From: Pseudanabaena cinerea FACHB-1277
GTDB lineage: Bacteria; Cyanobacteriota; Cyanobacteriia; Pseudanabaenales; Pseudanabaenaceae
Length of the DNA: 35,278 nt
Assembly: GCF_014696345.1 (NCBI RefSeq)
Contig: NZ_JACJPY010000044.1
Span: 1-35,278, forward strand
Reading direction: 5' to 3'
A program made the translations under genes and the position numbers. Of the stretch, positions 4,512 to 32,285 are shown one piece after another (the stretch's first letter is position 1; each line of letters starts with the position of its first letter). The notes below the pieces were generated by a model. The model saw only the letters and a list, made by a program, of their open reading frames with translations, made no database searches and was not told the DNA's origin.

Positions 4512-5171
4512 ATGTCAGAAGCAATTACGATCGCTGATATTTATAAACTATTTGAACAAACTAATGCGGCATTAGAGCGATCTCGCGCTGAGTTTGATCG
4601 CCGTGCCGCCGAAGCTGATCGCCGTGCCGCCGAAGCTGATCGCCGTGCCGCCGAAGCTAAGGCTGAAAACGATCGCCGTGCTGCTGAAGCTGCCCTTAGT
4701 CTAGCGAAGTTAGAGAAAACTGTTGAGCGCACCAGCAAGGCTGTGGATGGCTTAACAACTCGCTGGGGACGCTTTGTGGAAGAGCTAGTCCGCTCTGCGG
4801 TGGTGCGGATGTTTCGCGATCGCGGTATTTTAATTACGCGAACGATGGAAAGAGTGCGATCGCCTCTGACATCAGGGACTCCGATGGAAATTGATATTTT
4901 GGGCATAAATGGGATGAAAATGGTGGCAGTGGAGTGTAAATCACGATTATCTAAGGATGATGTCGATGAAATGGGCGATCGCTTAACTAACTTCAAAAAA
5001 GCATTCCCTGAATATGCTCAATACACCCTCTATGGGGCGGTGGCGGGTATCGAAATTAATGAGGGGGTAGATATTTATGCTTATCGCAAAGGTTTATTCG
5101 TGATTCGCACTAATGGCGACTCCGTGGAAATCGCTAATGACGATAAGTTTCAGCCCTTGGCTTGGGGGTAA
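4512..5171 (+). CDS. Coiled-coil protein with C-terminal PD-(D/E)XK nuclease-like domain (DUF3782-like)
   Basis: This 219-residue protein has a helical N-terminal half made of DRRAAEA heptads (residues about 29-60), predicted to form a coiled coil. The C-terminal half carries PD-(D/E)XK core elements: an IDILGING strand with the metal Asp, then VAVECKSRLS with the E-x-K pair, and a DVDEMGDRLTNF helix. Proteins of this layout are abundant in cyanobacteria and usually annotated DUF3782; their biological role is not established. Three exact 21-bp units encode the heptads (4596-4658), with a diverged fourth at 4671-4691, so copy number could vary. It is followed after 3 bp by a Uma2 nuclease-fold gene, suggesting one transcript. 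Confidence 0.75.
   Translation: MSEAITIADIYKLFEQTNAALERSRAEFDRRAAEADRRAAEADRRAAEAKAENDRRAAEAALSLAKLEKTVERTSKAVDGLTTRWGRFVEELVRSAVVRMFRDRGILITRTMERVRSPLTSGTPMEIDILGINGMKMVAVECKSRLSKDDVDEMGDRLTNFKKAFPEYAQYTLYGAVAGIEINEGVDIYAYRKGLFVIRTNGDSVEIANDDKFQPLAWG
4596..4691 (+). repeat. In-frame 21-bp tandem repeat
   Basis: Three identical consecutive 21-bp units (4596-4616, 4617-4637, 4638-4658) each encode DRRAAEA. A 12-bp interruption (AKAEN) and a diverged fourth unit (4671-4691) follow. The unit is 7 codons, one coiled-coil turn pair, so gain or loss keeps both reading frame and heptad phase. Perfect identity implies recent expansion. Confidence 0.9.
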
Positions 5172-23538: not shown

Positions 23539-23650
23539 TATTAGCTTTTAGCTTTTAGCTATTAGCTTTTAGCTTTTAGCTTTTAGCTTTTAGCTATTAG
23601 CTTTTAGCTTTTAGCTTTTAGCTTTTAGCTTTTAGCTTTTAGCTTTTAGG
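23539..23650 (+). repeat. (TTTTAGC)n heptamer array, 16 units
   Basis: There are sixteen uninterrupted 7-bp units. Most are TTTTAGC, units 1, 4 and 9 are TATTAGC, and the last is TTTTAGG. Short tandemly repeated repetitive (STRR) heptamers are well known in filamentous cyanobacteria. On the opposite strand the unit reads GCTAAAA, matching the GCTAATA units of the neighbouring array, so the two arrays are partly complementary. Confidence 0.95.
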
Positions 23651-23663
23651 CTTTGCCAGTCTT

Positions 23664-23790
23664 CCAATCACCAATCACCAATCACCAAAAGCCAACCGCT
23701 AATAGCTAATAGCTAATAGCCAATCCCCAAGAACAACAAAAGCTAACCGCTAACCACTAATAGCCAATCCCCAATCCCCAATCCCCAATT
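23664..23790 (+). repeat. Degenerate heptamer array, about 18 units
   Basis: Successive 7-bp units begin CCAATCA x3, then CCAAAAG, CCAACCG, CTAATAG x3 and CCAATCC, with diverged units following. The array ends in repeated CCCCAAT. The 7-bp phase is kept nearly throughout. The CTAATAG core complements the TATTAGC/TTTTAGC units upstream. Confidence 0.88.
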
Positions 23791-25142: not shown

Positions 25143-27179
25143 ATGGTCACAAGAATTTTCCTGTGTAACGAACAGACTGAGCCTGAGATTCGCGATTTTA
25201 TTCGTGAAGCGATCGCCGATATTTCAGAGGGGGAGCAGTACATCGTTACATGGAACTGTGGCAACATTCAAACGCTCAAGGTGGGCGATCGCGCTTACTT
25301 TAAACGCATTGGCAGTGCTAATCAAGGTTACTTTGCATCGGGTACGGTCGTGCCAGCCGATCGCGAATATCAACTGAAACAGCGATCGGCGCGATATCGT
25401 GAGCTTAGTGAGGCATACGACATTGACTCACAGTTAAATAATTTTCGGGTATGGGTGGCTTGGGATGCCTGTGTCAGCTTTGATGAACCGCTCCGAACTG
25501 ACTATTTGCGGCAACTGCCCCACTTCCAAGGAATGCCCCTAGAACCCCAGTCCGATGCAGGTGTATTTCGGGATGAATATGTGAAGATGCTCGATCGCGA
25601 GTGGGAGCGTCAAGTCCAGAAAGCGGCAAGGGCAGGGAAAGGCGTTAGTCTAATTGAGGTCTATTATCGCTGGGGGCTAGAGGATATTCAGCAAGGTTTC
25701 CCACAGGATGCGCTGGAGTCTTTTCGTCAAGTTTTGAAGCTAAATCCCAATTTTATTAAGGCTTATCTGGGTTTAGGGGATGCCCATGTGAGTTTGAAGG
25801 AATATGCCAAGGCGGTGGGCGACTATGGTAAAGCGATCGCCATGCGTCCCGATAAGGCGAGGCTTGCCTATTACAAGCGTGGTGAGATCAACTTTTTGCT
25901 GTCCCAGTTGCAGCAGGCTTTGGCAGATTTTCAAGGGGCGATCGCCATCGATCCTAACTACAGCGATGCTCATTTGGCACTGGGCAATACCTATTTCAAG
26001 CTCAAAAGTTACGAACAGGCGATCGCTTGCTATGACCGCGTATTAGAGCTAACCCCTGAGCGCGACTTGGCGGCATTTCGCCGTGGACGTTGCCATTACA
26101 TCCTCAAGGAATATCCTGAAGCGATCCGCGACTTTAGCTATGCGATCGAACTTCAGCCTAGCAATGTCGATGCCTATTACTATCGCGGCTTGACCTATGC
26201 TCAGCCCAACATCGCCGATGAAACCCTTGCGGGTGACGATCTACGCAAGGCGATCGTGCTGTATCAAACTCAAGGCAAACCCGACAAAGCCAAGAAAGCT
26301 AAGGAAATGCTCGAAACCCTAGCGATCGACTCGCTGCCCAAGGCAAAGCCCAAGAGCAGTTACACGATCGCCCCTGCGGTGGAAGCGGCGGTCAATCTTT
26401 TACCTAATAACGATGGAGCGCCCATTGCTGCCCCGATCGCCCTTGGGGTCAGCCTAGATGCGGATGACGATCAAGAAAGTAGCGATTTGATCGTGACTCA
26501 GCCCCCTGAAACCATTTCTAACGATCGCGCGATCGCCCAAGCAGAGGTGGCGATGGGTAATCTGACTGAGGCGATCGAAAAGATTGTTGAGGTGGAAAAA
26601 ATTGTCGAGGTGGAGAGGATTGTTGAAGTTGAAAAACTAGTTGAGGTAGAAAAAATCGTTGAGGTCGAAAAACTAGTTGAGGTGGAGAAGATCGTAGAAG
26701 TTGAAAAACTAGTGGATCGCGTGGTCGAAAGGGTCGTGGATCGCGTGGTCGAAAAGCCCATTCCCTTTTCCATCGAAGATCCTAGCACTGCCGAAAAATT
26801 GGCGATGATCTCGGTGATGGCGCAATATATGCGTGATGGTTGGATGGTACGATCAGTCGATAAGTCGCAGGTTGGCTACGATCTTGAATGCGCTAGAAAC
26901 GATCAACAGGAAGCAGTGATCATCAAAAGCTTTACCAGCGATCGCGCCTCCTTTGCCATTTCCGCGATCGAGATTGAGAATGCGCGGAGTAATAAAAACT
27001 TTGTACTGTGGATAGTTAGCGGTGCTGCCGAAAATCCTGATATGAAATGTATTCGTGGTCGGGAGCTTTTCGAGCAGTTTGACCTCGATCCCTTAGCCTT
27101 TGCCGCTAGGGTCAAGCAGCCCAATGTCCAGCTAGAGCGATCGGCGATCGCTCTAGAAATGCCCCAATTTGAGCAGTAA
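25143..27179 (+). CDS. EVE/PUA-like - TPR - hexad repeat - DUF3883-like multidomain protein
   Basis: This 678-residue protein has four parts. (1) Residues about 1-145 are an EVE/PUA-superfamily domain: YIVTWNCGNIQTLKVGDRAYFKRIG, GYFASGTVVPA and LRQLPHFQGMPLEPQSDAGVF, as in modified-base readers fused to HNH enzymes. (2) About 165-390 hold at least five TPR units (e.g. AYLGLGDAHVSLKEYAKAVGDY). (3) Residues 480-521 are seven exact hexads of (K/R)(I/L)VEVE, then a charged LVDRVVERVVDRVVEK stretch, forming a stalk. (4) About 535-640 is DUF3883-like: SQVGYDLECARND...VIIKSF...FAISAIEIENA...FVLWIVSG. In nuclease-like DUF3883 the middle strand is EVK; here it is IIK, so the Glu is lost. It may be a sensor or scaffold rather than an active nuclease. 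There is no operon partner. Confidence 0.72.
   Translation: MVTRIFLCNEQTEPEIRDFIREAIADISEGEQYIVTWNCGNIQTLKVGDRAYFKRIGSANQGYFASGTVVPADREYQLKQRSARYRELSEAYDIDSQLNNFRVWVAWDACVSFDEPLRTDYLRQLPHFQGMPLEPQSDAGVFRDEYVKMLDREWERQVQKAARAGKGVSLIEVYYRWGLEDIQQGFPQDALESFRQVLKLNPNFIKAYLGLGDAHVSLKEYAKAVGDYGKAIAMRPDKARLAYYKRGEINFLLSQLQQALADFQGAIAIDPNYSDAHLALGNTYFKLKSYEQAIACYDRVLELTPERDLAAFRRGRCHYILKEYPEAIRDFSYAIELQPSNVDAYYYRGLTYAQPNIADETLAGDDLRKAIVLYQTQGKPDKAKKAKEMLETLAIDSLPKAKPKSSYTIAPAVEAAVNLLPNNDGAPIAAPIALGVSLDADDDQESSDLIVTQPPETISNDRAIAQAEVAMGNLTEAIEKIVEVEKIVEVERIVEVEKLVEVEKIVEVEKLVEVEKIVEVEKLVDRVVERVVDRVVEKPIPFSIEDPSTAEKLAMISVMAQYMRDGWMVRSVDKSQVGYDLECARNDQQEAVIIKSFTSDRASFAISAIEIENARSNKNFVLWIVSGAAENPDMKCIRGRELFEQFDLDPLAFAARVKQPNVQLERSAIALEMPQFEQ
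26580..26705 (+). repeat. In-frame 18-bp tandem repeat, 7 units
   Basis: Seven consecutive 18-bp units encode (K/R)(I/L)VEVE. The protein repeat is almost perfect, while the DNA has many synonymous differences (gtt/gtc/gtg, gag/gaa). That indicates an old array held by selection at protein level. Confidence 0.9.
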
Positions 27180-28057: not shown

Positions 28058-28711
28058 ATGCTTGCAGATGTTACAGAATCTTTCAATGTGGCAAAATCTT
28101 TGGTATCTATAGCTGTACTTAGCTTACTAAACATAGGTCTTCTGTCAGCTAAAGATTGCTCCTATGCCATTGGATTTAATCTATCTAATTCTTCTAGCGC
28201 AGATAACAACAACGTTATTTCTACTCCAATTCAGTCGCCTATTCAGGATCTTCCCAAATCTACAGTTAGTCCTGATGCCAAAATATCTTCTTTTGATAAA
28301 TCCTTAAATTCTCATATTAAAGGATTTGATATCCTTTCACTGAACAATATCTATGTAGCTGAAACCCCAAAGATACTGTCAGTGGATCATAGCAGTCTAT
28401 TTACCATGCATTATGGGGAGTCAAAAGAACCTAACCATACTTCCTTTGTCTCATTTAAAAATGACATTGCCCCGACAGCAAACTCAAAAACTGGCATCAC
28501 ATATCCCTATAAATTAACAAATGCCAGTTACAACAATTCCAATATTGCTATCTTAGGGGGTGATAGCAGTCTCAGGGTATCAGCACCAAATTTAAACAAT
28601 GTCAAACTTGATCAGTTTAAGTTTGACCCTTCTGGTGGCTTATTAGTATTGGGTTGCTTGTTTTTGGGCAAACGCTATTTGCGGAAACAAACTAATACAA
28701 ATCCAAAGTAA
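28058..28711 (+). CDS. Secreted protein with PEP-CTERM-like C-terminal anchor
   Basis: This 217-residue protein is of unknown function. The N-terminus has a hydrophobic stretch (VAKSLVSIAVLSLLNIGLL) that could be a signal peptide. The centre is Ser/Asn/Thr-rich and poorly structured, as in exported surface proteins. The end FDPSGGLLVLGCLFLGKRYLRKQ has the layout of PEP-CTERM sorting tails: an F-x-PSxGLL motif, a short hydrophobic helix and a basic cluster (KRYLRK). Exosortase would cleave it and couple it to extracellular polymer. The motif is a variant, lacking a strict PEP. No exosortase gene is in the window. The long structured leader upstream suggests regulated expression. Confidence 0.55.
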   Translation: MLADVTESFNVAKSLVSIAVLSLLNIGLLSAKDCSYAIGFNLSNSSSADNNNVISTPIQSPIQDLPKSTVSPDAKISSFDKSLNSHIKGFDILSLNNIYVAETPKILSVDHSSLFTMHYGESKEPNHTSFVSFKNDIAPTANSKTGITYPYKLTNASYNNSNIAILGGDSSLRVSAPNLNNVKLDQFKFDPSGGLLVLGCLFLGKRYLRKQTNTNPK

Positions 28712-28823: not shown

Positions 28824-31800
28824 TCAGGTTAGAAAGTGATCGATTGACTGGGTGATTTTTTTAGCTAACATTTTGGCATAGGTCTTTTCGATAATACTGA
28901 TATGATTGGCTGAGACATGGATAATTTCTACTTTGCCTTTCAGTAATTGTTCCCAATGTTCTTCTGGAAAATCAACGTCAAAGCCTAAATAACTCTTGGT
29001 AGCTCTAAAGAATAGCACTTGCCCCCAATAAGGCTTGGGTCGATACTCTTGAAGATTGGGTATATATTCGTAAACTGTTTCAGGAATATTGATATTTGGA
29101 AAATATTTGGAAATCAGGGCTTGGTATCTTATTTTGATTATGATCTTTTTTTGGTTCACATACTCGACAAAACCTAAACGATAGATAGAGTCAACCATTA
29201 TCCATAGTTTATCAATTAATCTATTAATTAATTTCTGAGGCTTCGGATAAAAGACAATCCTATCTTTGATTAAATAAGTATCAAACATTATCAGCAAAGC
29301 TACCTTTTGATTCTGTGCAGTTAGTTGTTGTGCCATCTCGAAAGCTATAGTGCCGCCGAGAGAGTAACCCATCAAAAAGTAAGGACCATCTGGCTGAAGC
29401 GATCGCATTTCTTGAATATAGTGAGATGCTAAATCTTCTATTTTGGGATAGGAGATAGGATTACCTGTATTATCCCCCATTCCATAATGTAAACCATAAA
29501 TAGGTTGATTATCCCCTAAATAATGAGATAGATCCTTATACTTCAGCCAATGAATAGCAAATAGAATAGGGCGAGTGCCTCTAGGTTGAATAGGGACAAG
29601 AGAATACCAAGGGAAAATTTCTGCTTCAGATTTTAAAATGTTAGCCAACTTTTCAATCGTTGGAGCCTGAAATATTGTCGATATGGACATATTAATATCA
29701 AAATTTAGAGCTATTTCGGATAGCACGCTTACGGATAGAAGAGAGTTGCCACCTAGTTCAAAAAAATTGTCGTGAATGCCTATATAACTAAGTTTTAAAG
29801 TTCTTTGCCATATTTGAGTAAGCTGCTTTTCTATTTCATCGCGAGGGGCAACATATTCTCCAGACATATCTTCCGCTATGTGGAACGCTGTAGCTGTGTT
29901 AGATTGGCGATCGCCTGATTTTGCTGGCGCTGGACTTATAGAGCTGTCTGAACTTGAATTAATCCAATAGGATTGGCGGTCAAAAGGATAAGTCGGCAGT
30001 GAAATTGGATAACAGTTTTTATAATCACCAACTTTAGCCCAATCGACCTTAATTCCCATTAGCCAAAACTTAATTAAATTTGAGAGTAAAGACAGTAAAC
30101 TAGCATCATTTAAGCTGTCAATTGTGTTATTATCCACACTGGCTGAATTCAGTTTGATTTTATCCAGAAATTTAATCTCATTAGTGCCTAAATCTAGTTG
30201 AATATAATTATTTGCTATGAATTGGTTAAATGCTCCTACAAAATTGTTAGCATCTGCATCAAATTCTTGTAGCCATTGATCTTTAGAAATTACTTGGTTT
30301 ACTTTTATTGTATAACCAGTTATAGGCGAGGTTATTGAAATCTTTGCAGGCTGAAAATTCAAATTTAATTCTTCTAATGTACTCTTTTTAAGAATTAACG
30401 AAACTACATCTTCTAAGGTTAAAATCTCAGCTATAGTTGCAGAAACATAATTACCAGTACCATTGCCTATAATGCTTTTAGGCTCAATTCCCCAATATAT
30501 CCATAGTCGAGCGATCGCATATTCACAAATAAAATTTACAAGATCACAGTAAGAATTATTATTAAGGCTATCTTGCTCGATAAGTTCTAAAAGTGGGCTT
30601 CCTGTATGGTATACTAAAACCAAATCACATTCTTGTAAAAAAGAATAGGCATCTATTTGGCTATGATAAAGAGACTTAATAATAGACTTGATTTTACTAG
30701 CTTGTCCAGTGCAAACAAAATAAATAGGTGCTGGTTTGCGACGATTAACTTGATCATTCAGTACAGCAGCTAATGGCTCTTTTTGAATAAATGCGTTTAG
30801 TTGTGCGCTCAATTGATCTTTTGATTTGGTAATGATCGCGAGACGATGCTTAAAATGCGATCGCCGCGTATTTGCCGTGAAGCAAATGTCATTTAAAGAT
30901 ACCGTAGGCTGTTCTTGTAGAAAAGATTGATAGCGGATGGCTAACTCTTGTAAAGCTGTTGCGGTCTTGGCTGTGAGAGTCAAAACTTTTAAAGGCAAGT
31001 CACTCTTAGTAATAGATTTTAATTTAGCTTGAGATGGATATTCCTCTAATACAACATGAGCATTAGTGCCACCAAAGCCAAAGGCACTAACTCCAGCCCG
31101 AAGTGGGTATATTTCTTCTGGTAAAGATTCTAATGTTTCTTGAACCTTTAGCCCCAATTTGTTGAAAGGGATTGAAGGATTTGGTTCTTGAAAATGTAGG
31201 TTAGGTGGTATCTGACGATGATAAAGAGAAAGAGCCGTCTTGATCAAACCCGCCATTCCCGAAGCAGCTTCTGTATGACCAATATTTGTTTTTACGCAGC
31301 CCACTCGACAAGGATTATCTAGATCGCGACCTTTCCCCACAACTGATCCTAAAGCCTTCATTTCTAATGCATCGCCAATAGGTGTTGCCGTGCCATGAGC
31401 TTCAATATAATGCACAGAGTTAGGCGCAATTCCTGCTTGCCGATAAGCTTGTTGGAGTAGATCAATCTGGGCTTGCATATTGGGGGCGGTTAAGCCGTTA
31501 CTGCGACCGTTGTGATTAACGGCACTTCCACGAATCACTGCATAAATGCGATCGCCATCCACTTCAGCCTGCGATAGCAATTTCAAAACTACAACTCCCA
31601 CTCCTTCTCCCCGCACATATCCATCAGCCTTCGCATCAAAGGATTTGCAACGTCCGTCTGGAGAAAGGATCCCCGCATTGGCAAATCTAGCTGTAACCTC
31701 AGGAGATAAGATTATATTTACTCCACAGGCTAAGGCAATAGAATTTTCTCCATTCCGCAAACTTTTGCAAGCATAATCAATAGCCACCAATGAAGATGCA

Positions 31801-32285
31801 CAAGAGGCATTAATACCCATGCTAGAGCCACGAAAATCAAAATAATAGGAAATTCGATTAGCTGACATACCATAATCATTTCCAATCGAGTCTTTAATAT
31901 CTGGAACATCCTGATGCTGGCTAGCGATTGCATAATAATCATTGGAAGAAATCCCAACAAAAATACCAGCATCCATTCCCGATAAGTTGCCAGGAATTTG
32001 TCCCGCGTCTTCCAATGCTTCCCAAGCTACTTCTAATAAAAGTCTATGCTGAGGATCAATTGCGATCGCTTCTTTAGCAGGAATTCCGAAAAATTCGGCA
32101 TCGAATTGATCTACCTGTTCTAAAAATCCTCCACGCTCATTTGATTGAACCTTAGCAGACCGCTCGCAAGGCAACTGCCCAATAGTATCAATACCTTCAC
32201 ACAATTTATTCCAGTACTCATAAAGATTGGGAGCTTGCGGAAACCGACATCCCATCCCAATAATTGCGATCAATTCTTTACTCAT
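28824..32285 (-). CDS. Polyketide synthase module: KS - inactive AT - ACP - thioesterase
   Basis: This is a 1153-residue type I PKS. The KS (about 1-425) is complete, with C162 in INASCASSL, H297 in EAHGTATPIGD and H337 in NIGHTEAASG. A shortened AT-like region (about 440-720) follows, in which the usual GHSxG nucleophile motif is GNGTG (607-611), so Ser is Gly; the GQGSQ start is GQASK. The carrier domain has S848 in LGGNSLL. The thioesterase (about 900-1150) has S975 in GYSLGGT and a late H in SANHISIIEK. There is no KR, DH, ER or methyltransferase. It would condense one extender unit with a chain from the upstream FAAL-ACP and release a free acid or lactone, with the extender supplied in trans. 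It is the last gene of the cluster. Confidence 0.88.
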   Translation of the reverse strand: MSKELIAIIGMGCRFPQAPNLYEYWNKLCEGIDTIGQLPCERSAKVQSNERGGFLEQVDQFDAEFFGIPAKEAIAIDPQHRLLLEVAWEALEDAGQIPGNLSGMDAGIFVGISSNDYYAIASQHQDVPDIKDSIGNDYGMSANRISYYFDFRGSSMGINASCASSLVAIDYACKSLRNGENSIALACGVNIILSPEVTARFANAGILSPDGRCKSFDAKADGYVRGEGVGVVVLKLLSQAEVDGDRIYAVIRGSAVNHNGRSNGLTAPNMQAQIDLLQQAYRQAGIAPNSVHYIEAHGTATPIGDALEMKALGSVVGKGRDLDNPCRVGCVKTNIGHTEAASGMAGLIKTALSLYHRQIPPNLHFQEPNPSIPFNKLGLKVQETLESLPEEIYPLRAGVSAFGFGGTNAHVVLEEYPSQAKLKSITKSDLPLKVLTLTAKTATALQELAIRYQSFLQEQPTVSLNDICFTANTRRSHFKHRLAIITKSKDQLSAQLNAFIQKEPLAAVLNDQVNRRKPAPIYFVCTGQASKIKSIIKSLYHSQIDAYSFLQECDLVLVYHTGSPLLELIEQDSLNNNSYCDLVNFICEYAIARLWIYWGIEPKSIIGNGTGNYVSATIAEILTLEDVVSLILKKSTLEELNLNFQPAKISITSPITGYTIKVNQVISKDQWLQEFDADANNFVGAFNQFIANNYIQLDLGTNEIKFLDKIKLNSASVDNNTIDSLNDASLLSLLSNLIKFWLMGIKVDWAKVGDYKNCYPISLPTYPFDRQSYWINSSSDSSISPAPAKSGDRQSNTATAFHIAEDMSGEYVAPRDEIEKQLTQIWQRTLKLSYIGIHDNFFELGGNSLLSVSVLSEIALNFDINMSISTIFQAPTIEKLANILKSEAEIFPWYSLVPIQPRGTRPILFAIHWLKYKDLSHYLGDNQPIYGLHYGMGDNTGNPISYPKIEDLASHYIQEMRSLQPDGPYFLMGYSLGGTIAFEMAQQLTAQNQKVALLIMFDTYLIKDRIVFYPKPQKLINRLIDKLWIMVDSIYRLGFVEYVNQKKIIIKIRYQALISKYFPNINIPETVYEYIPNLQEYRPKPYWGQVLFFRATKSYLGFDVDFPEEHWEQLLKGKVEIIHVSANHISIIEKTYAKMLAKKITQSIDHFLT

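Follow-up and report, generated by a model that had tools for sequence, protein, structure and literature searches.

The gene and its architecture

The stretch of DNA considered here, hereafter the window, comprises 35,278 nucleotides of the cyanobacterium Pseudanabaena cinerea FACHB-1277 and corresponds to contig C119 in a draft assembly of 4.77 Mb. The gene studied encodes a protein of 678 amino acids (aa), the EVE-TPR-NOV_C protein, in which an EVE-like domain is followed by tetratricopeptide repeats (TPRs), a variable linker, a stalk of hexad repeats, and a NOV_C domain that has a nuclease fold but has lost a catalytic residue. An earlier sequence-only reading had described this open reading frame (ORF) and its order of domains; the coordinates proved exact, and the description was confirmed. 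The coordinates are collected in Table 1. When the full protein was submitted to PADLOC, no family was assigned with confidence. In the comparisons below, the genus and the family correspond to our groups g1 and f1, and group f28, which holds the Nostoc genomes, is referred to as the Nostoc family.

Table 1. Features of the EVE-TPR-NOV_C gene (positions in the window)
Feature	Position	Strand	Basis
Whole gene, 678 aa: EVE-like reader, TPRs, variable linker, hexad stalk, NOV_C pseudo-nuclease	25143..27179	+	ORF; coordinates exact
EVE/YTH-like domain, residues 1-156	25143..25610	+	AlphaFold2 and VIA-align; alignment A3
W37 codon, EVE-like domain	25251-25253	+	Invariant across 25 rows of A3
TPR array, about residues 171-352	25653..26198	+	Pfam TPR_1, five stretches
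Fast-evolving linker, residues 401-475	26343..26567	+	pN/pS 0.50, mean identity 46%
Seven exact (K/R)(I/L)VEVE hexads, residues 480-521	26580..26705	+	Sequence count
Stalk end, VDRVVE-type repeats, residues 522-538	26706..26756	+	Sequence
NOV_C (formerly DUF3883), predicted PD-(D/E)XK fold, residues 550-637	26790..27053	+	Pfam PF13020, 1e-9, 38.8 bits; Hjc Z 8.4
Active-site remains of NOV_C	26880..26927	+	D580 (26880-26882), I593 (26919-26921) replacing Glu, K595 (26925-26927)

The NOV_C domain and its lost active site

Residues 539-678, scanned alone, match Pfam NOV_C well above the cut-off of 22.1 bits. This family is DUF3883 under a new name, and the annotation of a Tolypothrix relative as a 'DUF3883 domain-containing protein' is in keeping with that. 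In the scan of the full-length protein, NOV_C is not among the 25 matches listed of 28, possibly because the bias filter of HMMER reacts to the low-complexity hexads. The AlphaFold2 model of the domain is fair, with a predicted local distance difference test (pLDDT) score of 78 overall and of 80-94, by blocks, for model residues 11-120. Its top matches in VIA-align (Z 8.4-7.1) are Hjc (8.4), I-Ssp6803I (8.1), RecU, and NhoI, with EcoRV lower at 5.8, which points to a PD-(D/E)XK nuclease fold. Thus, the DUF3883-like end predicted from the letters alone is supported by both profile and model.

The active site, on the other hand, is incomplete. NOV_C relatives carry the motif GYD...(I/V)E(V/I)K, while the window protein retains the aspartate and the lysine of the D...(E/D)xK triad and has isoleucine at the position of the catalytic glutamate, the very change that had first been suspected. 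The substitution is not a peculiarity of one strain, as all 26 Pseudanabaena proteins keep the aspartate and the lysine and have valine (22) or isoleucine (4) at the Glu position. Sister genera have lost this residue as well, with alanine in three loci (L099, L036, L141) and serine, together with a change of lysine to arginine, in genome G028. In SM2_1_8 (L102) and in G430 (L142), the EVK is kept and lysine stands in place of the aspartate. Two distinct site losses are therefore seen: that of the glutamate in the Pseudanabaena, SM2_2_1, and G028 lineages, and that of the aspartate in the SM2_1_8 lineage. As a control, 20 other cyanobacterial NOV_C domains were read. The D...(D/E)xK motif is intact in 17 of them, the three exceptions lying in frames of 241-285 aa. 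Among those with the motif is a second NOV_C domain of the genome that contains the window (L191, G000:C129:10147-10431), which has an intact GFD...IEVK in a 446-aa frame. To the extent that residues can tell, then, the window protein lacks the combination of a reader with an intact nuclease and cannot be counted among the active type IV restriction enzymes.

The N-terminal EVE-like domain

Residues 1-165 gave a confident AlphaFold2 model (pLDDT 91), and the comparison of folds was used because the sequence route to solved structures gave only chance matches: such was the outcome of hmmsearch with the N- and C-terminal alignments against PDB sequences, and phmmer of a related EVE-HNH protein (L071) against the same set gave just a weak match to HNH. 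The best VIA-align matches of the model are 2ar1 (Z 11.1 over 125 residues, root-mean-square deviation (rmsd) 2.8), 1zce (10.2), and 2eve (10.1), and the entries for THYN1 follow at 9.6 and 9.5. The seven top rows, which span Z 11.1-9.5, 121-129 residues, and rmsd values of 2.8-4.2, are EVE-family entries, 2ar1 and 1zce among them. Below these rows come YTH and ASCH domains, and the restriction enzyme VcaM4I (6yex) at Z 8.4. For 2eve and THYN1 (5j3e), the term EVE is used in PMC7897488. Model and alignment together assign the domain to the EVE/YTH fold, and the EVE/PUA-like base reader proposed in the sequence-only reading is thereby upheld, despite a Pfam score of 12.9 bits.

Because this score is under the Pfam cut-off, the domain is named EVE-like. 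Its relatives behave similarly: four of them (L071, L104, L106, L111) score 17-22 bits, each under 23, no EVE row appeared in the scans of five others (L064, L065, L107, L075, L099), and for L102 none was among the 25 Pfam matches listed. Within the domain, W37 never varies in alignment A3 and lies 12 residues from D49; in six canonical cyanobacterial EVE domains, the corresponding distance is 19. The 12-residue spacing is also present in the EVE-HNH protein L071.

TPRs, linker, and hexad stalk

The TPRs, about five in number, are beyond doubt (Pfam TPR_1, 4.3e-34, 115 bits), in agreement with the superhelix that had been proposed for this segment. The seven exact hexads, counted correctly from the start, follow one another with no gap and correspond to an 18-nt tandem array with 73% matches between copies, so that the protein repeat has been preserved while the codons have diverged. 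A period of six does not match that of a canonical coiled coil.

Each of the 18 Pseudanabaena relatives counted (L081-L098) has three to seven exact hexads. None was found in the other 15 loci (L099-L113), three of which end at a contig edge before or inside the stalk, nor in the sister-genus and Nostoc-family proteins counted. The G028 protein, with a very long linker, also has no exact hexad. The stalk therefore looks like a trait of the genus Pseudanabaena rather than a part of the ancestral machine.

Distribution and relatives

The gene was found in all 26 Pseudanabaena genomes examined, with one match to the C-terminal domain per genome, and it is open in every one of them, even if the copy in G005 is split over two contigs and that in G024 is two residues shorter at its end. 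Outside the genus, the N-terminal domain occurs in 5 of 12 genomes of the family, in 11 of the 386 genomes sampled evenly across the phylum (four of the 11 being Pseudanabaena), and, patchily, in 30 of 217 genomes of the Nostoc family.

The best places in these 30 genomes are informative about the origin of the protein. Seven encode EVE-TPR-NOV_C proteins, all with an intact D...ExK site (GYD...VE(V/I)K), and nine encode EVE-TPR-HNH proteins, to which one with an internal stop can be added; the remainder consist of five short stand-alone domains, one other arrangement, and seven interrupted or fragmentary copies. The HNH ends were assigned by motif, and Pfam HNH_2 was found at 55 bits in the two that were scanned. 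Since the same N-terminal and TPR module is joined to either NOV_C or HNH, the C-terminal end appears to be an exchangeable slot for a nuclease or effector, and an exchangeable nuclease behind an EVE-like reader is, judging from these predicted domains, the layout of modification-dependent restriction enzymes. The HNH end resembles that of phosphorothioate-DNA restriction enzymes, under the cut-off of the model (47 of 180 bits), and the NOV_C end weakly matches the TmtA and PD-T4-1 models. A shorter variant (L071), from a genome elsewhere in the class, has its EVE domain (22.0 bits, just below the cut-off) joined directly to HNH. The link of both end domains to restriction, drawn in the sequence-only reading, is thus supported by relatives that are EVE-TPR-nuclease fusions of restriction type.

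A plasmid search for relatives of the N-terminal domain returned a single one, on the mobilizable 31 kb Tolypothrix plasmid NZ_CP063798.1 (L216), while none was found in viral contigs or phage records. This EVE-TPR-NOV_C copy keeps an intact GYD...VE(V/I)K and is followed, after 1.4 kb, by the gene of a DNA cytosine methyltransferase. The plasmid further encodes a TIR protein, the toxin VapC, and an integrase. The segment 13187-28096, which holds the intact-site copy, the methyltransferase, VapC, and the large TIR-domain protein, may form a small defence island. One paper lists the plasmid gene, only as a strain-specific ORF. Patchy occurrence, mobility, and defence-island context are thus features of the relatives and not of the Pseudanabaena gene.

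In the tree of N-terminal domains, 16 Pseudanabaenaceae rows form one group (98/96), and five stand-alone EVE-like rows form a separate one (100/100). Stand-alone proteins of this kind, about 160-170 aa long, occur in Nostoc and in Pseudanabaena ULC187 (G010); examples are L108 (8001-8522), L110, L111, and L073. Moreover, Pseudanabaena genome G007 encodes, beside its dead core gene, a live-looking EVE-like protein of 608 aa (L218, G007:C38, 715-2541, minus strand), whose HNH-type end, AAHIFPY...NGLLLRADIHTLFDL, was recognized by motif only.

Selection on the parts of the protein

Selection was estimated over 19 Pseudanabaena sequences (171 pairs) as the ratio of nonsynonymous to synonymous differences per site (pN/pS), with p-distances because synonymous sites are near saturation. 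The EVE-like domain has a ratio of 0.051, the dead NOV_C domain one of 0.085, and the TPRs one of 0.098, as opposed to 0.50 for the linker; that of the stalk, 0.112, depends on an unsure alignment of the repeats. In seven neighbouring families, each represented by 5 to 17 sequences, the lowest ratio is 0.064 (aroH) and the highest 0.255. Hence, the EVE-like reader has the lowest value measured at the locus, and the dead nuclease domain is as constrained as ordinary housekeeping neighbours; purifying selection on both is strong.

Genomic setting

No defence gene was found among the window neighbours scanned, eight by Pfam and six by PADLOC. In 18 of the 19 Pseudanabaena loci besides the window (L081-L098, L100), the gene has aroH upstream of it on its own strand, and in 15 of them the two are direct neighbours. 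In L089, Pfam identifies the aroH product as a chorismate mutase. In the window, its place is taken by a divergent cobS, and aroH is found on contig C42, followed by an unrelated gene; the EVE-TPR-NOV_C gene is therefore still under selection without its usual neighbour. This separation, and the fact that aroH was not seen in four sister-genus loci, led us to reject aroH as a functional partner and to regard the association as inherited linkage only.

Downstream, the genes vary. Of 21 genus genomes, four (G005, G007, G011, G016) have a C5 methyltransferase gene at a distance of about 1.1 kb on this side. In G007 (L089), a HindVP-type restriction endonuclease gene stands between it and the EVE-TPR-NOV_C gene, and L090 and G016 have the same order. 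The pair of restriction endonuclease and C5 methyltransferase precedes a peptidase M1 gene in L089 (10178-12138), L090 (10106-12132), and L182 (3981-6007), and it looks inserted because L095 has the peptidase gene at this place without the pair.

The window contains 55 copies of the HIP1 octamer GCGATCGC (0.35 expected) and 95 of CGATCG (4.3 expected). The gene is the densest of the 24 ORFs counted, with 20 CGATCG sites, i.e., 9.8/kb versus 2.3/kb in the remaining window, and its orthologues are also denser in CGATCG than their flanks. Most of this density is explained by amino-acid make-up, because the gene has twice as many possible sites per kb. Given the amino-acid sequence, 249 of 423 possible sites are realized in the gene (0.59) versus 596 of 1121 in neighbouring ORFs (0.53), with a p value of 0.045 that pools 18 loci that are not independent; in the window alone, the figures are 20 of 28 versus 33 of 71 (p 0.028). 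A link of CGATCG or HIP1 to the gene was accordingly rejected as a signal, a small excess notwithstanding. The abundance of HIP1 is a known cyanobacterial feature (Elhai 2015, PMC4390886), and the same article postulates a methyl-dependent mismatch repair system.

Other features of the window are mentioned for completeness. Between the EVE-TPR-NOV_C gene and a polyketide-synthase-like ORF (28824-32285) lies an ORF of 217 aa (28058-28711), whose match to PFE-CTERM stays below the threshold (17.3 of 24 bits). Between cysK and a ChuX/HutX-like gene, the 7-mer TTAGCTT is repeated in 16 tandem copies with 95% matches (23541-23654), after which come short arrays of the 7-mers CCAATCA/CCAATCC (23664-23688 and 23764-23789). 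Finally, three perfect 21-nt tandem copies are located at 4595-4658, within ORF 4512-5171.

Interpretation

We consider it only slightly better than an even bet that the EVE-TPR-NOV_C protein is a nuclease-dead, domesticated descendant of an EVE-TPR-nuclease modification-dependent restriction enzyme, which would now act as a core, non-cutting reader or adaptor of modified nucleic acid. By this account, a fusion of reader and nuclease would have entered or arisen in the ancestor of Pseudanabaenaceae, would then have lost catalysis and gained TPRs, and in Pseudanabaena also the stalk, and would have become a core gene of that genus, with a product that binds instead of cutting. The EVE-like domain would still pocket a modified base, more likely in DNA than in RNA because the relatives are fused to DNA-nuclease folds, and the dead PD-(D/E)XK domain would still bind nucleic acid or dimerize. 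The TPRs would hold a partner, with the linker and the stalk serving as a tether. Rather than cleaving modified sites, the protein would mark or bridge them and bring its partner there.

Several observations weigh against this account. Pfam EVE on residues 1-156 stays at 12.9 bits, under its cut-off of 23, the EVE row is absent for two scanned Pseudanabaenaceae relatives, and when profiles are compared, the match to six canonical EVE domains of cyanobacteria is weak (probability 23%, 40 columns). The best fold match of the C-terminal domain is modest (Z 8.4). In the N-domain tree, the Asp-less lineage is sister to the Glu-less ones at 89/65, which is not strong, and it is from this key fork that an intact ancestral site within Pseudanabaenaceae is inferred. 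Moreover, a core C5 methyltransferase, encoded in all 26 genus genomes, and the gene do not go together across the family, as G028 has the gene without an orthologue of the enzyme and four genomes (G027, G029, G032, G034) have the methyltransferase without the gene. To these points can be added a SpoU-type RNA 2'-O-methylase gene two to three genes upstream in 5 of the 19 loci besides the window (L086, L089, L090, L092, L095), which would suit a role in RNA.

Indeed, the protein might instead serve a housekeeping process as a reader of modified RNA (tRNA, rRNA, or small RNA), with the nuclease-like end as a remnant used for RNA binding or docking. Besides the SpoU gene, of which no copy was seen nearby in the remaining 14 loci (several of these being short), this proposal can call on the YTH RNA readers among the fold matches and on the failure of the searches to find viral or phage relatives. 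A core, slowly evolving gene also recalls the slow class of EVE proteins described in PMC7641849 (Bell et al.). The nearest homologues, however, are fused to DNA-type nucleases (intact NOV_C, HNH_2), which argues for an origin in DNA recognition, and we regard an RNA target as unlikely.

A bolder form of the DNA reading, which we hold to be rather more doubtful still, makes the protein an epigenetic reader that, throughout the genus, is directed at the cell's own genome and whose blade-less EVE-like head would sit on self methylated bases while the TPRs bring in partners of repair, replication, or transcription. The cell's own 5-methylcytosine is compatible with such a target, since an orthologous core C5 methyltransferase is encoded in 26/26 genus genomes, and the 55 HIP1 copies of the window are also brought forward for the proposal. 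As an obligate writer, this enzyme was rejected on account of the family exceptions in both directions, and it is retained only within the self-reading proposal. Read-only readers of DNA methylation are well known in eukaryotes and hardly in bacteria, where readers of modified bases are mostly attached to nucleases, and we know of no reader for the heavy orphan methylation of cyanobacteria (HIP1, CGATCG). If correct, the proposal would provide a bacterial counterpart of the eukaryotic methyl-DNA readers, with the loss of catalysis as the price of reading self.

A still-working defence protein, which would sense modified phage DNA and use its TPRs to summon another protein, a nuclease or a toxin, has low probability. 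It would agree with the restriction-type fusions, among them the one beside a cytosine methyltransferase, VapC, and a TIR protein on a mobilizable plasmid, with the weak matches of NOV_C to TmtA and PD-T4-1, and with the C5 methyltransferase downstream in a few genomes, in one scanned case with a HindVP-type endonuclease. Yet defence genes are usually patchy, whereas this gene is present throughout the genus with a reader of low pN/pS, and it shows the usual linkage to aroH and no constant adjacent partner. The link to restriction and defence made in the sequence-only reading is supported as to ancestry, given both end domains, the missing glutamate, and the restriction-type relatives; the pattern seen in the genus is not that of an accessory defence gene, the gene being universal, slow, usually linked to aroH, and devoid of defence genes among the neighbours scanned. 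The TPRs may, as that reading proposed, recruit a partner nuclease. One outcome that it had named as its undoing was a universal housekeeping gene, single-copy and unconnected with defence or modification: the gene is indeed core in the genus (26/26 genomes), but it is linked to defence through its relatives.

It is improbable that the C-terminal end still cuts by means of a rearranged site, with, for example, E590 replacing the glutamate at 593. D580, E590, K595, and E610 are all retained in 26/26 Pseudanabaena proteins and E551 in the 13 rows of alignment A4. However, E590 shares a strand with position 593, which it precedes by three residues, and should thus point to the opposite side; G028 has in addition changed lysine to arginine, and the SM2_1_8 lineage lacks the aspartate. 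Least probable is a decaying relic without function, to which the lost active site and the seven interrupted or fragmentary Nostoc-family copies might point and which the selection data contradict, the gene being open in 26 genomes with pN/pS values of 0.05-0.10 across its folded parts.

The domesticated, non-cutting reader thus remains our preferred account. One and the same reader module occurs joined to a live-looking nuclease, to an alternative nuclease, or to a nuclease that has been broken in two ways, and in the end it has become fixed as a strongly constrained core gene. The lineage makes the domestication of a restriction enzyme directly testable and offers a candidate methylation reader in cyanobacteria.

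Comparison with known systems

In the main texts of the literature searched, no description was found of a protein laid out as EVE-TPR-NOV_C, nor of a core form with a dead nuclease, which within these bounds agrees with the initial impression that the architecture had not been described. The terms TPR, DUF3883, NOV_C, and cyanobacteria were not found in the main text of PMC7641849, and the CoCoNuT paper mentions the EVE domain and tetratricopeptide in unrelated contexts. The separate elements have clear precedents. DUF3883 is called a novel restriction endonuclease domain in PMC3710099, and the window protein shares the family and the predicted fold of this restriction-like domain, differing from most other cyanobacterial NOV_C domains (17/20) in its broken D...(D/E)xK. 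With the slow-evolving EVE proteins of proteobacteria and THYN1, it shares a conserved, housekeeping-like behaviour; unlike them, it is large and multidomain, and its spacing from W37 to D49 departs from that of the canonical cyanobacterial EVE domains (12 residues vs 19).

Restriction enzymes of EVE-HNH and EVE-PD(D/E)XK type are already described in PMC7641849 and PMC7897488. The EVE-PD(D/E)XK type IV class (Bell, Wolf and Koonin 2020, PMC7641849) combines both kinds of domain in one chain, as here, whereas the window protein has lost the catalytic glutamate, has TPRs, and is genus-wide. VcaM4I, an EVE-HNH enzyme (PMC7897488), resembles it in having an EVE-type reader at the N-terminus and a nuclease at the C-terminus, and the likeness extends to the Nostoc family, in which the N-terminal and TPR module also carries an HNH nuclease. 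In contrast to VcaM4I, the window protein has TPRs and a long stalk, ends in a PD-(D/E)XK domain that is predicted to be catalytically broken, and is core rather than patchy.

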